34,994 nucleotides of DNA from contig WQRQ01000017.1 of NCBI GenBank assembly GCA_009786685.1, positions 1-34,994 on the forward strand. Reading direction: 5' to 3'. The notes beneath the pieces are model-generated. The model did no database searches and had not been told where the DNA came from. It worked only from the letters and a program-made list of their open reading frames with translations. A program made the translations under genes and the position numbers. Shown one piece after another: positions 2,563 through 24,741 of this stretch (its first letter is position 1; the number at the start of each line of letters is the position of its first letter). The DNA is from Defluviitaleaceae bacterium. Its GTDB lineage: Bacteria > Bacillota > Clostridia > Lachnospirales > WQUN01.

Positions 2563-4100
2563 AATTTCTGCCCGGTGGTAATCTTAGACGGATTTTCAAT
2601 TTCATTAACGGATAGCAACTCATCAAGCGGAGTGTTGTAGCGTTTAGCTATTTTCCACAGGTTGTCGCCGGGTTGTACGATGTATACGGTGAGGCTGGCT
2701 TGGTTGGCTAGGATTTCCGGGGCTATTTCAGAAAACTCTATGTCGTGGATTATGCGGGTTTCTTCTTGTTCCGTTACGCGGGTGTTAAAGGTTAGGAGAA
2801 GGCGTACTTCTGTTTCGGTTGGGGTTAGCATGTTAAAGGATACGTTGTCTATGGAGATTGCGATATCCGGCTGCATTGTGGGGTTTGCGCCTTTGGCTTC
2901 TATTACTTGGCGGTAAGGGATTACCGTGCTGAAGGAGGCCAAGGGCGTGCTGTCGCTTTCCGCTACGTATAGAATGCTTGTGTTTATCGCGCCTTCTACG
3001 ATGATTTTGTCTTCTATTGTTTTAATGTCGTCTATATGGGGCGTACCCTTTACGCGGAAAACTTGGAGCATGGGGGGTACTGTGTCGGAGAGGCTTACGA
3101 CTTCTTTTACGTTGGTTTGGTTGCGGTTATTGCATACTAAGCGCGGGTAACGGACGACGGTTTTTTGCAGGTTTAGTGTGGTGTCTATGATATATGCGTC
3201 TTCGAGGATGGGGAAGGTGTCGGTGCTGTATACTTTTAGCTCTACGCCTACGGAAATTTCTATGTCGAGCACGCGGTCCTCGCCGTCGTCGTCGGGGCGG
3301 ATTGTGATGTTTGTTTCCAGGATTTGCAGTGCAACATCCGCAAACATGTCGTCACGTGCGCCGCTGATATCCACCGGCCCGTTAAAGGGAATTTCGCTTT
3401 CTATGAACTCAATGAGGCTGTCGTCCGAGTCGCCCCGATATAAAGTGGTAAGCGAAATCTCGCCCGAGAGGTTTACGCGTCCGTTGGCAAGGCGTGTTTC
3501 TTGGTTTGTTATGCTTGCCGTGGACTGCAAAACTTCGCGGATATTTGGCTTTGCGGAGGGAAGAACGAGCTGCTCCTTTACGGCAAAGCGGTCTATGCGG
3601 TTGTCTACGGTGCGGTTTAGGTTTAGGCTGGTTTTAAGAAGCTGATTTTCTGGCACGTCATTGATATGTACAACCATCTCATGCGTATCGCTGCGCTCTG
3701 CGTTGATACGCACATTTACTATTGCGCGATAATTGACTTTGCGGTCGTTTACCACACGGAAGTCTATGTTTGCGATTGTGGCATTTGCTCGTACCCACAT
3801 ATCCTTTGTTACGCCGTCGAGGTTTACAAAGTCGTCGAGGGTGCGGCTTAGGTTTATCGTGTGGATGGCTTTGTCCGCGCTTTTTGCCACATACAGCACC
3901 GACAGGTTAAGCCTGCCTATGTAGTTTACGCGGTCCGTGCCTGCCTCTGTACGCTCTATCAGCACTTGTTCTTCCGTTTGCAGCAGGAGTGCCATGTCGG
4001 GCTTGGTATCGGGTACGATTAGGTCGCCTTCCAGCATTACCTGCACCTGCTCGTTGCCTACCAGTTGGTCCAGGTTTACTTGTTCTCTTACTAATTCCAT
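2523..4100 (-). CDS. DUF3794/SPOCS-domain protein with C-terminal LysM
   Basis: Repeated SPOCS-like segments (VQVMLEGDLIVPDTKPDM...) and LysM YIVQPGDNLWKIAKRYNTPLDELLSVNEIENPSKITTGQKLLI; SD AGGAGG upstream. Confidence 0.9.
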   Translation of the reverse strand: MELVREQVNLDQLVGNEQVQVMLEGDLIVPDTKPDMALLLQTEEQVLIERTEAGTDRVNYIGRLNLSVLYVAKSADKAIHTINLSRTLDDFVNLDGVTKDMWVRANATIANIDFRVVNDRKVNYRAIVNVRINAERSDTHEMVVHINDVPENQLLKTSLNLNRTVDNRIDRFAVKEQLVLPSAKPNIREVLQSTASITNQETRLANGRVNLSGEISLTTLYRGDSDDSLIEFIESEIPFNGPVDISGARDDMFADVALQILETNITIRPDDDGEDRVLDIEISVGVELKVYSTDTFPILEDAYIIDTTLNLQKTVVRYPRLVCNNRNQTNVKEVVSLSDTVPPMLQVFRVKGTPHIDDIKTIEDKIIVEGAINTSILYVAESDSTPLASFSTVIPYRQVIEAKGANPTMQPDIAISIDNVSFNMLTPTETEVRLLLTFNTRVTEQEETRIIHDIEFSEIAPEILANQASLTVYIVQPGDNLWKIAKRYNTPLDELLSVNEIENPSKITTGQKLLILNRGASPPPR

Positions 4101-21369: not shown

Positions 21370-21409
21370 AGAAGAAAGGCTGCCTATACTCCAAGGCAGC
21401 CTTTCTTCT
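21370..21409. terminator. Bidirectional terminator between convergent genes
   Basis: AGAAGAAAGGCTGCCT-8 nt-AGGCAGCCTTTCTTCT, 16-bp perfect stem. Confidence 0.8.
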
Positions 21410-22308
21410 TACTTATTTTTGCTAAATTGCCAAAGTTTGTTTAGTGACGGTATTATGCGAAATTCTGCATGGTTTAAATACATAGCATTGTAAAAATTAT
21501 ACCATAATCGGAAATCCGGAAATTTGGCATAATGACTTACGGAACGATGATTACGTTGCCAAGGTTTTAGCCCGGCATAATGGATTCCCCAAAGTACATC
21601 TATACGGGGATATCCCCCGATAGAGCAATAACGGATATCAATATTTGTCCATCTGCCCGACCATAGCATGGTTGCCATTTGCATTTCCGGCCAAAGGAAT
21701 TTATCCGTGTATTTTGTAATACTCGGGTTGTTTAAGGCGTGACGAAGTGTGCTGTATTCTTCCGTTGATGGCGCAAGCACCCACAAACCGGAGTTTACAC
21801 CCATATTGTGCGGGTTTTGTTTAACACGGTCTGTTATTTCCTTTGGGATTTTTTTGCCATGTGGGCATAGCGGCTCGTATAGCGTATGCCAGCTCCATTT
21901 TTGTAAATTTTTTGTTCCGTTGGAATAACAGTCGGTTTTATTCTCCATAAGAATGCCTGCCGGCGTGTCTAATTGAAACAATGAGTCGTAGCTGTGCAAC
22001 GGCAGCACATCGGCATCCAAAAGAATAATTTTGTCGTAGTCGCAAAGACGGAGTGCTTGGAATCGCGTCGGAAGTATTTTGCGGTCACTTCTGCCGCCGA
22101 CTGCCGTTTTGTTAAATCTCAACTCGTCTATGGTGATAACCTCATCATACAACACACGTAAAGCTTGTTTTGCTTTTTCGGAAACATCGTCTGTTACAAG
22201 GCATACACAATCTATTGTTGTTTGCATTTTTAGCGCGTACGCGAGAACCAAAGCCCCCGGTAGGTAGCCGTCCCCGCGCATAATAAATGTTACATAAGCA
22301 TATCGCAC
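21409..22308 (-). CDS. Glycosyltransferase family 8 / glycogenin-like protein
   Basis: YAYVTFIMRGDGYLPGALVLAYALK..., IILLDADVLPLHSYDSLF (DxD), GVNSGLWVLAPS; GTG start. Confidence 0.88.
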   Translation of the reverse strand: MRYAYVTFIMRGDGYLPGALVLAYALKMQTTIDCVCLVTDDVSEKAKQALRVLYDEVITIDELRFNKTAVGGRSDRKILPTRFQALRLCDYDKIILLDADVLPLHSYDSLFQLDTPAGILMENKTDCYSNGTKNLQKWSWHTLYEPLCPHGKKIPKEITDRVKQNPHNMGVNSGLWVLAPSTEEYSTLRHALNNPSITKYTDKFLWPEMQMATMLWSGRWTNIDIRYCSIGGYPRIDVLWGIHYAGLKPWQRNHRSVSHYAKFPDFRLWYNFYNAMYLNHAEFRIIPSLNKLWQFSKNK

Positions 22309-22309
22309 A

Positions 22310-22343
22310 GTGGAATCCTCCCATTATCAGAGGAATCCACCGT
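22310..22343 (-). promoter_or_regulatory. SD-sequestering hairpin upstream of the GT8 GTG start
   Basis: Minus strand GTGGATTCCTC-tgataatgg-GAGGATTCCAC: 10 of 11 positions pair, and the SD GGGAGG is at the loop/3' arm. Confidence 0.6.
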
Positions 22344-22391
22344 CCGTTACAATTTAATTTTAGGCATATTGCAGACATTGGGCATTCCCCT

Positions 22392-22466
22392 TTAATTTGC
22401 GTCTTGTTTGCTCCACAATATGCCAAAAGTGTCCCTTGTCGGGAATTTAAAACCGTACTGCATCAT
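22392..22466 (-). CDS. 24-codon ORF (leader peptide or secreted/modified peptide candidate); not in ORF track
   Basis: AAGGAG-AATCAACC-ATG; translation MMQYGFKFPTRDTFGILWSKQDAN*; lies between an intrinsic terminator and the GT8 gene. Confidence 0.5.
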   Translation of the reverse strand: MMQYGFKFPTRDTFGILWSKQDAN

Positions 22467-22503
22467 GGTTGATTCTCCTTCCAATAAAGCGAAATAATTC
22501 GCT

Positions 22504-22536
22504 ATAAAAAATAGCCGTGGGCGCACCACAGCCATA
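22504..22536 (-). terminator. Intrinsic terminator inside the GT8 leader
   Basis: Minus strand GGCTGTGG-tgcg-CCCACGGCTATTTTTTATAG. Confidence 0.65.
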
Positions 22537-22567
22537 ATAAACCATTCCATATTTTATGATGGACAGC

Positions 22568-22648
22568 AGATTATAGTTATGACACGCCAAAAAAGCCCTG
22601 TGATTTTTACACAGGAAAATCTAAGCTAAGCGTCACAACTATAAAATC
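22568..22648 (-). ncRNA. Candidate cis-regulatory structured RNA (aptamer-like)
   Basis: 15-bp stem UUAUAGUUGUGACGC/GUGUCAUAACUAUAA enclosing an inner hairpin CCUGUG-UAAAAAU-CACAGG. Confidence 0.45.
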
Positions 22649-22691
22649 ATCCTCTCACCCTTTCCATGCCTTGCGGGATATTTTTATCACG

Positions 22692-22710
22692 GATTGCATT
22701 TACATGTCAA
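22692..22710 (-). promoter_or_regulatory. Candidate promoter -35 region TTGACA (start of the GT8 leader transcript; AT-rich -10 just downstream)
   Basis: Minus strand TTGACATGTAAATGCAATCCGTGATAAAAAT; the -10 is weak, with spacing of 17-18. Confidence 0.45.
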
Positions 22711-22756: not shown

Positions 22757-23650
22757 TTAATGCATATGCAGGTTGCCGATGATATTGTTAAGAATTTGGG
22801 CTTTGTCCTCGGGAGGCAGGTCGCTCATTGCGCTTTCGAGGTCGAATCCTATGGCGGCCAGTTTGTCAATCATGGAGCTGCCGTCGTTGCTGTTTTGGAT
22901 TGCAACGTCGTCGCCAAAGATGAGATACGACCACCAAGCGTCTCGGGGAAAGCCGTCTTCGAATACAATATTGTGGCGTTGTGGGATACGTTTGTCGGGG
23001 GTGTCCTCGTTTGGCAGTTGGGCGAACTCGGGCTTGTCCGGCATTATGGCGCAATGGGCGTCCATCGCTGCAAATTGCAGCATTACAGGGATGATATCTG
23101 CGTCGGGGTCGTTTGCGCTGCCGGGGACGGTAAATGGGATTTGGTAGCGATACCAGCCGTTGTTGTGTCGCTCGGGTTTGATGTAGTGGCGGTTTAGCCT
23201 AAACACCATCGGGTTTTCTGTGTCTCCTGCGAAGTAGATTTTTAGCTTGCAGGTTTCCTGGCGGCGGTCGTTTTCTCCGCCGTTTAGCCAGAATGTGAAC
23301 ATGTAGTCCGTTTCCTTTTGCAATGCCATATGGGGCGAGTCGATTTGATGCCAATTCTTGTGCCAGTCGCCCAGGCAAAAAACCTCGGTTAGCCCTCCAC
23401 ACATGTCTGTTACATATACTCGTTCTTCTTTTTGCGAAGCCTTCCATTTACGTGGCTCAAATGCTATATAATTTTCCATGGTATCCTCCGATTTTTTCGG
23501 CGGACACGCCAACATAAGGGTGTTTTCTCCTACGAAGCGTGCCCTGCCGTTTTTTACGAGACCTTTGGCTCGTTTTGGGTAGGTTGCTTCATATTCTTGC
23601 CCACTTGAGTCGAAGACTCGAATAGTTTTAAGCGTTTCGTTTTTTGTGAT
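22757..23650 (-). CDS. Hypothetical protein with N-terminal 'YPKRAKGLVKNGRARFV' motif
   Basis: Long ORF with terminator; the ORF track extends to 23707 (TTG without SD). The best SD (GGGGGAG) precedes an in-frame ATC at 23650, so the start is uncertain. Confidence 0.75.
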   Translation of the reverse strand: MTKNETLKTIRVFDSSGQEYEATYPKRAKGLVKNGRARFVGENTLMLACPPKKSEDTMENYIAFEPRKWKASQKEERVYVTDMCGGLTEVFCLGDWHKNWHQIDSPHMALQKETDYMFTFWLNGGENDRRQETCKLKIYFAGDTENPMVFRLNRHYIKPERHNNGWYRYQIPFTVPGSANDPDADIIPVMLQFAAMDAHCAIMPDKPEFAQLPNEDTPDKRIPQRHNIVFEDGFPRDAWWSYLIFGDDVAIQNSNDGSSMIDKLAAIGFDLESAMSDLPPEDKAQILNNIIGNLHMH

Positions 23651-23739
23651 GGGTGTCTCCCCCTTTCGCTTATCGGAATAGTAGCATATAAATTGACTTT
23701 TGCGCAAGTTTGCGTGACAATGCGGGTGGAGGGATTTTT

Positions 23740-24741
23740 ATGCCCGCGTCACGTAAATTTGTCGTTAAAACTTTGGAAAATTTTATTTTAATCGCGCTGT
23801 TTGGCGGATTTTTTGCTGTGCCTGTTTATTTGAGTACATATACGCCGCGGTTTTTGTGGGTCGCGGGTGGGGTTTTTGTTTTGGTGCTTTTTGCTACTAC
23901 GTTTTTTAGGCGTGGGGTGGCTATCGGGCGCGGGTTTGCGGATTTTATGCCTGTGGCTTTTATTCCGCTTTCTGTTTGGGCGGCGCGGAGTGGGCATGGG
24001 GGGCTTGTTACGGTTTTTTCTGTTGTTATGGTGATTGTTATTATCGGGAGCTTTGTGCTTTTACATATGGCCAGGATGGACGAGACGTTGGAGGTTATGC
24101 CGCTTTCTTCTGCCGCGCCTGTGCGGCGGATTATTTCGTTTAACTATAAGCTGATGGCGGGGCTTGCAGGGTTGGTTTTGGTGCTTACGCTGGTTTTGTT
24201 TTTTGCGGTGGTAATGCCTGTGTTTGGCATTTTGGCGGAGATTTTCCCGGGGCTGCCGGAGTTTGTCCATCCCGAGAGGCCTGATATGGAGGTGGCGCAA
24301 AGACCCATGGGAGGGTTGCGCGATTTGGAAACGCCGGGAATGCTTTCTCGTGAGCAATCGCCCGTTATGCAGATTTTTGGGCTTGTTATACGGATTGTAT
24401 TTTCCGTGTTTATTGTTGTCGCTGTGGCATTTTGCGGCTATATGATAATCCGCGCTTTTTTGAAATGGAGCGGCACGCGCAAAATATACTATGAGCAGAT
24501 GGCAAAAGACATGGACGCCATAGACGAAAAGGAATTTATCCTACCCATACGCAAAAAAGAACGCACCCAACAGCCCGATAACGAAATCCGCCGCCGCTTT
24601 AAAGCCGCAGTAAAACGGCACATAAAAAACGGCGTACCGATTGAAAAATCAGATACGCCGTCGGATATGCAGGTGCGGATAACTGCGGAAGATATCGGGG
24701 TCGGGGAGTATGAACAAGTGCGTTACGGGGAAATCACATAA
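23740..24741 (+). CDS. Hypothetical multi-TM membrane protein
   Basis: Several TM segments and a charged cytoplasmic tail; SD GTGGAGGG before ATG 23740. Confidence 0.8.
   Translation: MPASRKFVVKTLENFILIALFGGFFAVPVYLSTYTPRFLWVAGGVFVLVLFATTFFRRGVAIGRGFADFMPVAFIPLSVWAARSGHGGLVTVFSVVMVIVIIGSFVLLHMARMDETLEVMPLSSAAPVRRIISFNYKLMAGLAGLVLVLTLVLFFAVVMPVFGILAEIFPGLPEFVHPERPDMEVAQRPMGGLRDLETPGMLSREQSPVMQIFGLVIRIVFSVFIVVAVAFCGYMIIRAFLKWSGTRKIYYEQMAKDMDAIDEKEFILPIRKKERTQQPDNEIRRRFKAAVKRHIKNGVPIEKSDTPSDMQVRITAEDIGVGEYEQVRYGEIT

Follow-up and report, generated by a model that had tools for sequence, protein, structure and literature searches.

The GT8 locus and its leader

The window is a 34,994-nt stretch of DNA (contig WQRQ01000017.1) from a Defluviitaleaceae bacterium, referred to here as G000, whose genome was searched as a 2.93-Mb draft. 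A GT8 glycosyltransferase of 299 aa is encoded on the minus strand at positions 21409-22308. Its product matches PF01501 (E 6.6e-9), and the closest solved structures by sequence are glycogenins (E 2e-13). A search for a phage or plasmid origin of the gene gave no match. Upstream of the leader are two ORFs, 22757-23707 on the minus strand (316 aa) and 23710-24741 on the plus strand (343 aa), neither of which has a Pfam or NCBIfam match.

The leader of the GT8 gene occupies positions 22710-22308 of the minus strand. An earlier note had described in it a promoter element, a long stem with an inner hairpin, a terminator, a further short hairpin, a 24-codon ORF (sORF1) and a hairpin over the GT8 ribosome site. 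A check of the sequence found every one of these in place. Three elements are added to that description here: sORF2, a stem between sORF1 and sORF2, and an antiterminator. As a whole, the leader folds at -130.8 kcal/mol, compared with -101 +/- 5.8 kcal/mol for its shuffles (z -5.2, 0/100).

GT8 orthologues are present in 5 of the 38 genomes of the family. In two of these, each from another genus, a homologous leader lies upstream of the gene: G019, with 69% protein identity, and G035, with 64%. Homologous leaders thus precede orthologous GT8 genes in three genera. The two leader-bearing relatives are MAGs labelled Defluviitaleaceae (WQRX01000001 and WQVY01000098; Clostridia, Lachnospirales by NCBI), and we take their record series to be of termite-gut origin. 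The GT8 start codon is GTG in G000, TTG in G035 and ATG in G019, and the gene upstream of the leader differs as well, being that of the 316-aa protein in G000, a cardiolipin synthase in G035 and a small unassigned ORF in G019. Upstream of the orthologues of G031 and G036 (59-60% identity), no such leader was found. The GT8 homologues of G184 and G202, from another family of the order (46-47% identity), are without the translation relay described below. Their long leaders (L046/L047) each hold two terminator-like hairpins, which in G184 are GGCATGCTTGAGGCATG-T7 and AGGCTATAAATG..CATTTACAGCCT-T7.

The earlier note could match the leader to no riboswitch class, and the Rfam scan agrees, with 0 matches at the gathering threshold. 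When E values up to 10 were admitted, only below-threshold matches appeared, none of them a T-box. Two covariance models, R1 and R2, were run on the 38 family genomes and on 392 genomes of the order; they were built from the same leaders, and their scores on these are circular. In both sets, the confident matches were the known GT8 leaders only, three in all. Weaker matches in the order genomes had best E values between 2.6e-4 and 0.01, and those inspected in the family genomes gave no consistent alignment. Scanned with a DNA pattern, genome contigs yielded the same two relatives only and viral contigs none.

The 5' domain and a plausible transcription switch

The promoter consists of TTGACA (22710-22705), an 18-nt spacer and TAAAAA (22686-22681), all on the minus strand. 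The promoter scan of the window missed it because its -10 element ends in A. At the aligned place, the G035 leader has TTGCTA-17-TAAAAT, and in G019 no forward promoter was scored. Downstream of the promoter lies the block CGCAAGGCATGGAAAGG (22659-22675, minus strand), which is identical in G035 at 17/17 positions, was not found in G019 and probably lies at the transcript's 5' end or close to it. Within this domain, AUGGAAAG can pair with CUGUCCAU to form a helix, P0, all of whose pairs are kept between G000 and G035, with 6/7 invariant.

A possible three-codon ORF, uORF0 (ATG ATT TTA TAG; 22639-22650, minus strand), overlaps the 5' arm of the next stem, P1. Its counterpart in G035 reads ATG TTC ATA TAA, and the peptides would be MIL* and MFI*, respectively. 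In both leaders, AAAGG stands 8-10 nt upstream of the ATG, and the stop codon falls within the P1 arm. Translation of uORF0, judged from the two leaders compared, is speculative. No conserved long ORF was found in the 5' domain, where the frames differ between G000 and G035.

P1 is a 15-bp stem between TTATAGTTGTGACGC (22630-22644, minus strand), the anti-antiterminator strand, and GTGTCATAACTATAA at 22585-22571. It is followed by an intrinsic terminator, ATGGCTGTGG-TGCGC-CCACGGCTAT plus a T-run (22506-22535, minus strand; hairpin 22535-22511), which lies ~40 nt ahead of the start codon of sORF1. The 3' strand of P1, GGCGTGTCATAACTATAAT (22570-22588, minus strand), has two possible partners. 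It can pair with the P1 5' arm, which is the OFF state, or with the antiterminator 3' strand ATTATGGCTGTGGTGCGCC (22520-22538, minus strand), which includes the terminator 5' arm, and this is the ON state. In this strand, GGCGUGUCAUAACUAUAAU is complementary to two segments, the P1 5' arm and AUUAUGGCUGUGGUGCGCC, the latter holding the terminator 5' arm. The antiterminator pairs at 18/19 positions in G000 and by 17 bp in G035. When the 3' half is folded alone, the antiterminator forms and the terminator does not, at -25.9 kcal/mol in G000 and -39.1 kcal/mol in G035. Among 500 shuffles, the duplex was equalled or bettered in 0.2% (G000) and 0% (G035). These alternative pairings are established by sequence or calculation, as are the reading frames and the conservation seen in the leader.

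Comparison of G000 with G035 shows that all 15 homologous pairs of the antiterminator are kept, through one double and five single changes, and that sliding the partner by 1-3 columns lowers the pairing to 20-53%. Of the P1 pairs, 12 are homologous and kept by G000 and G035 alike, through one double and three single compensated changes. One G035 change loses a P1 pair (A.G) and gains an antiterminator pair (G-C), where G000 has A.C. P1 is flanked by the near-invariant GCUGUC(C/U)AUC and CUUANNUUAG/UUGG, and its apical hairpin varies. The inner CCUGUG/CACAGG hairpin, which the earlier note described with the long stem, is present in G000 and is not conserved in G035. The terminator has the same 10-bp stem and 5-nt loop in G000, G035 and G019, with compensated changes. 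Conservation, which the earlier note had named as a test of its reading, is thus borne out. The covariation at the pairs of this stage, drawn from two sequences (2-3 for the leader as a whole), appears real, if thin, and carries no statistical claim; with two sequences, a within-column shuffle control is uninformative (255/500).

In the free leader, the calculated probability of the terminator is 0.998 in G000 and 0.994 in G035. Covering the P1 5' arm with a 31-nt footprint brings it down to at most 0.017 and 0.002, and a modelled ribosome on the uORF0 codons over that arm to at most 0.012 and 0.002. In 200 shuffles of the P1-3'-strand/spacer region, the terminator stays at ~0.95, and the observed value is reached in 2/200 (G000) and 0/200 (G035). 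A GC-rich hairpin with a U-run upstream of the gene, as in intrinsic-terminator attenuators, is found in all three leaders, and a mutually exclusive antiterminator that uses the terminator 5' arm in G000 and G035. A search for an antiterminator in G019 found none; its terminator is kept without the 5' switch domain. On these model folds, P1 and the terminator are plausibly parts of a transcription switch, carried by two of the three genera.

Between the terminator and sORF1 is the AGCGAA/TTCGCT hairpin, a short palindrome (TATAGCGAATTATTTCGCTTTA; 22485-22506, minus strand) that the earlier note had listed as part of the architecture. The palindrome is repeated in the genome. Its family, TATAGCGAATTAATTCG...CGAATTAATTCGCTATA, has ~30 partial matches in the G000 genome, and the copy in the window is the short form. 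From its sequence, the hairpin is a remnant of a mobile palindrome, of the MITE kind, and lies outside the regulator. It is absent from G019.

Members of the family (contigs L009, L012, L015, L016 and L019 of G000) are either short and solo or long with a GC-rich palindrome inside, and related matches occur in other genomes of the family. At the same spot, G035 has a different, longer palindrome, TATAGCAATTC...GAATTGCTATAG (L023 ~2600-2720, minus strand). Because two different palindromes occupy one spot, the site appears to have been struck twice by mobile palindromes.

A predicted translation relay

sORF1 encodes 24 aa, MMQYGFKFPTRDTFGILWSKQDAN (22392-22466, minus strand), and has its Shine-Dalgarno (SD) sequence GGAAGGAG 8 nt upstream, at 22482-22475. 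Counterparts with an SD exist in G019 (MDRGKKHPIRKGKGILQRK) and G035, their frame matching that of G000 with respect to the stem arm described below, and in all three leaders the sORF1 stop lies 13-18 nt before ATG2, the start codon of sORF2. The G035 copy (L023 2610-2490, minus strand) has a strong SD, GGAGGGAAGGGCC, but at the expected start only ATT, a rare start codon. Conservation of the peptide is limited to GIL(W/Q), whose codons double as the stem arm, and no repeated codon was found in the peptides, which therefore do not reveal a signal amino acid.

The relay stem joins GGCATATTG (22424-22416) to CAATATGCC (22371-22363) and so spans 22363-22424 of the minus strand. It encloses the sORF1 stop, the ribosome site of sORF2 (SD2) and ATG2, and covers the first codons of sORF2. 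Both arms are identical in the three genera, amid divergent sequence, and the stem is stronger than its shuffles in all three leaders (z -3.2, -5.1 and -6.2). SD2, AGGGG at 22391-22387, directly follows the sORF1 stop. sORF2 itself is 77 aa long (ATG TCT GCA ATA TGC...; 22145-22378, minus strand). It passes through the GT8 SD hairpin and stops 164 nt inside the GT8 gene in another frame (overlap 22145-22308). ATG2 lies 70 nt from the GT8 start in G000, 67 nt in G019 and 103 nt in G035. All three distances are 1 mod 3, so the sORF2 frame, open and the same in the three genomes, has survived indels of 3 nt and 33 nt. A cysteine-containing stretch of sORF2, AICxCN, is seen in all three genera.

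A hairpin over 22310-22341 of the minus strand hides the GT8 SD (GGAGG, 22321-22317); its z scores are -5.0, -4.4 and -3.2 in the three leaders. Opening the GT8 initiation region is calculated to cost 19.4 kcal/mol, making it the least accessible of 22 genes compared in the window (the next costs 17.5); several of the starts compared come from uncertain ORF calls. A modelled ribosome on sORF1 lowers the cost of opening ATG2 from 13.3, 12.9 and 9.5 kcal/mol in the three leaders to minima of 3.8, 2.9 and 2.0, and leaves the GT8 SD shut. With the modelled ribosome on sORF2, the cost of opening the GT8 SD falls from 18.0, 18.5 and 12.9 to 9.4, 5.7 and 5.6 kcal/mol. The calculation thus gives a serial relay, in which sORF1 would open sORF2 and sORF2 would open GT8.

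Proposed mechanism and alternatives

The earlier note's reading of the leader as an attenuator acting on both transcription and translation finds support in the exclusive antiterminator of two genera and in a translation layer conserved in three. The best explanation is a two-stage, cis-acting attenuator of the single GT8 gene, an explanation to which we give a probability of about 0.6. The two-stage architecture taken by itself is likely. That the leader is triggered by ribosomes occupying it or translating it slowly, the trigger we prefer, is more tentative, at somewhat under even odds.

The new transcript would fold P1 and leave the terminator free, so that most RNA polymerase would halt ~170 nt from the start. 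Were the P1 5' arm occupied, the P1 3' strand would take the terminator 5' arm and transcription would go on. The ribosome site of sORF1 is open, and a ribosome on the last third of sORF1 would melt the relay stem and expose the sORF2 start. A ribosome on sORF2 would in turn melt the hairpin over the GT8 ribosome site. This sequence of events rests on three inferences: the terminator is active in the cell, its readthrough is under regulation, and both sORF1 and sORF2 are translated. The ribosome trigger is preferred because P1 is stable without a ligand and every gate opens with a ribosome on its closing strand. A minimal uORF0 could even make the leader a set of three serial ribosome-operated locks, in which uORF0 flips the antiterminator ahead of the two relay uORFs. 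The shortness of uORF0, three codons, counts against the ribosome trigger. The version with three locks is unlikely. If it were true, GT8 expression would need several independent reports of ribosomes present or slowed, and the leader would be a new class of translation-status sensor over a sugar-transferring enzyme.

The main rival to the ribosome trigger is control by a ligand or protein at the invariant 5' block, a reading we consider possible and somewhat improbable. The 5' domain would then be an orphan riboswitch binding a small molecule or protein, whose aptamer, made of the 5' block, P0 and the conserved P1 bases, chooses between P1 with the terminator and the antiterminator, and the relay would only couple GT8 translation. 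A 17-nt invariant block exceeds the needs of a ribosome site and therefore fits a ligand or protein better, and near-invariance on both sides of P1 beside a variable apical hairpin, together with classical alternative pairing and an expression platform, points the same way. Against this, P1 is 12-17 bp long and stable unaided, which typical ligand-gated P1 helices are not; no Rfam family reaches threshold; and the leader was found before no other gene in the 392 order genomes, whereas most riboswitches precede several genes.

It is unlikely that the relay is constitutive translational coupling that holds GT8 expression low and senses nothing. Such an arrangement would be in keeping with the weak start codons of GT8 (GTG, TTG), its buried SD and the poor conservation of the sORF1 and sORF2 peptides, from which no signal can be identified. 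Constitutive coupling, however, leaves unexplained both an alternative antiterminator kept in two genera and relay-stem arms conserved exactly amid divergent sequence. It is less probable again that the 5' part makes a small RNA in its own right, with a promoter and terminator to itself and no relation to GT8, and that GT8 is regulated by the relay only. The promoter, compact fold and strong terminator do delimit a ~170-nt unit, but the terminator stands just before the sORF1 ribosome site in G000 and G019, and homologously in G035 apart from the inserted palindrome. In G019, the gap from terminator to SD is ~22 nt and leaves no room for a second promoter. The 5' unit, moreover, is found beside GT8 only, and a small RNA has no need of an antiterminator. 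A decayed MITE with copies elsewhere, the refutation offered by the earlier note, or chance palindromes can be set aside as very improbable. The mobile family does supply the 22506-22485 hairpin, but only this 22-nt palindrome is repeated, while P1, the terminator and the relay are single in the genome and hold the same place before orthologous GT8 genes elsewhere.

Significance and comparison with known systems

In the GT8 leader, an intrinsic-terminator switch is joined to a two-step translation relay before one gene. The leader is kept across three genera while flanking genes and small peptides vary, and it is apparently the regulatory logic itself that is conserved. Uncultured gut Clostridia thus carry compact leader regulators that are absent from Rfam.

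The mgtCBR leader of Salmonella (PMC3641672) is likewise long and has two short ORFs, mgtM and mgtP, whose translation picks between alternative stems and so sets transcription of the operon. Each of these ORFs senses its own signal, ATP or charged tRNA-Pro, at the level of transcription (PMC3641672). In the GT8 leader, by contrast, the relay is a serial one of translation and the transcription switch lies upstream, and the two are likened by arrangement, not by sequence.

Like Erm-type translational attenuators, the GT8 leader places a short ORF with an SD ahead of a gene with a sequestered SD, but the downstream gene is a GT8 and not one that protects the ribosome. In the usual ermA model, the second leader peptide ends before erm, whereas sORF2 overlaps the gene start, and the GT8 leader has an extra transcription switch. 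ermA (PMC8615237) and ermB (PMC8274638) likewise have two leader ORFs and a hidden ribosome site that is opened by leader-bound ribosomes; their genes are resistance methylases induced by macrolide stalling.

In toiL-topAI (PMC12121999), a proposed sensor of translation stress, a uORF likewise lies within a stem that hides the next ribosome site, and the state of translation is tied to premature termination. That system has one uORF and Rho-dependent termination, whereas the GT8 leader chains two uORFs and has an intrinsic terminator opposed by an antiterminator. In translational coupling by RNA unfolding (reviewed in PMC12548453), upstream translation melts the structure over the next start, as it would here. 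Such coupling is usually between full genes, and in the GT8 leader it would run through a chain of two dedicated small ORFs. Lying outside all RNA families tested, the GT8 leader combines parts of known kinds in a new way.
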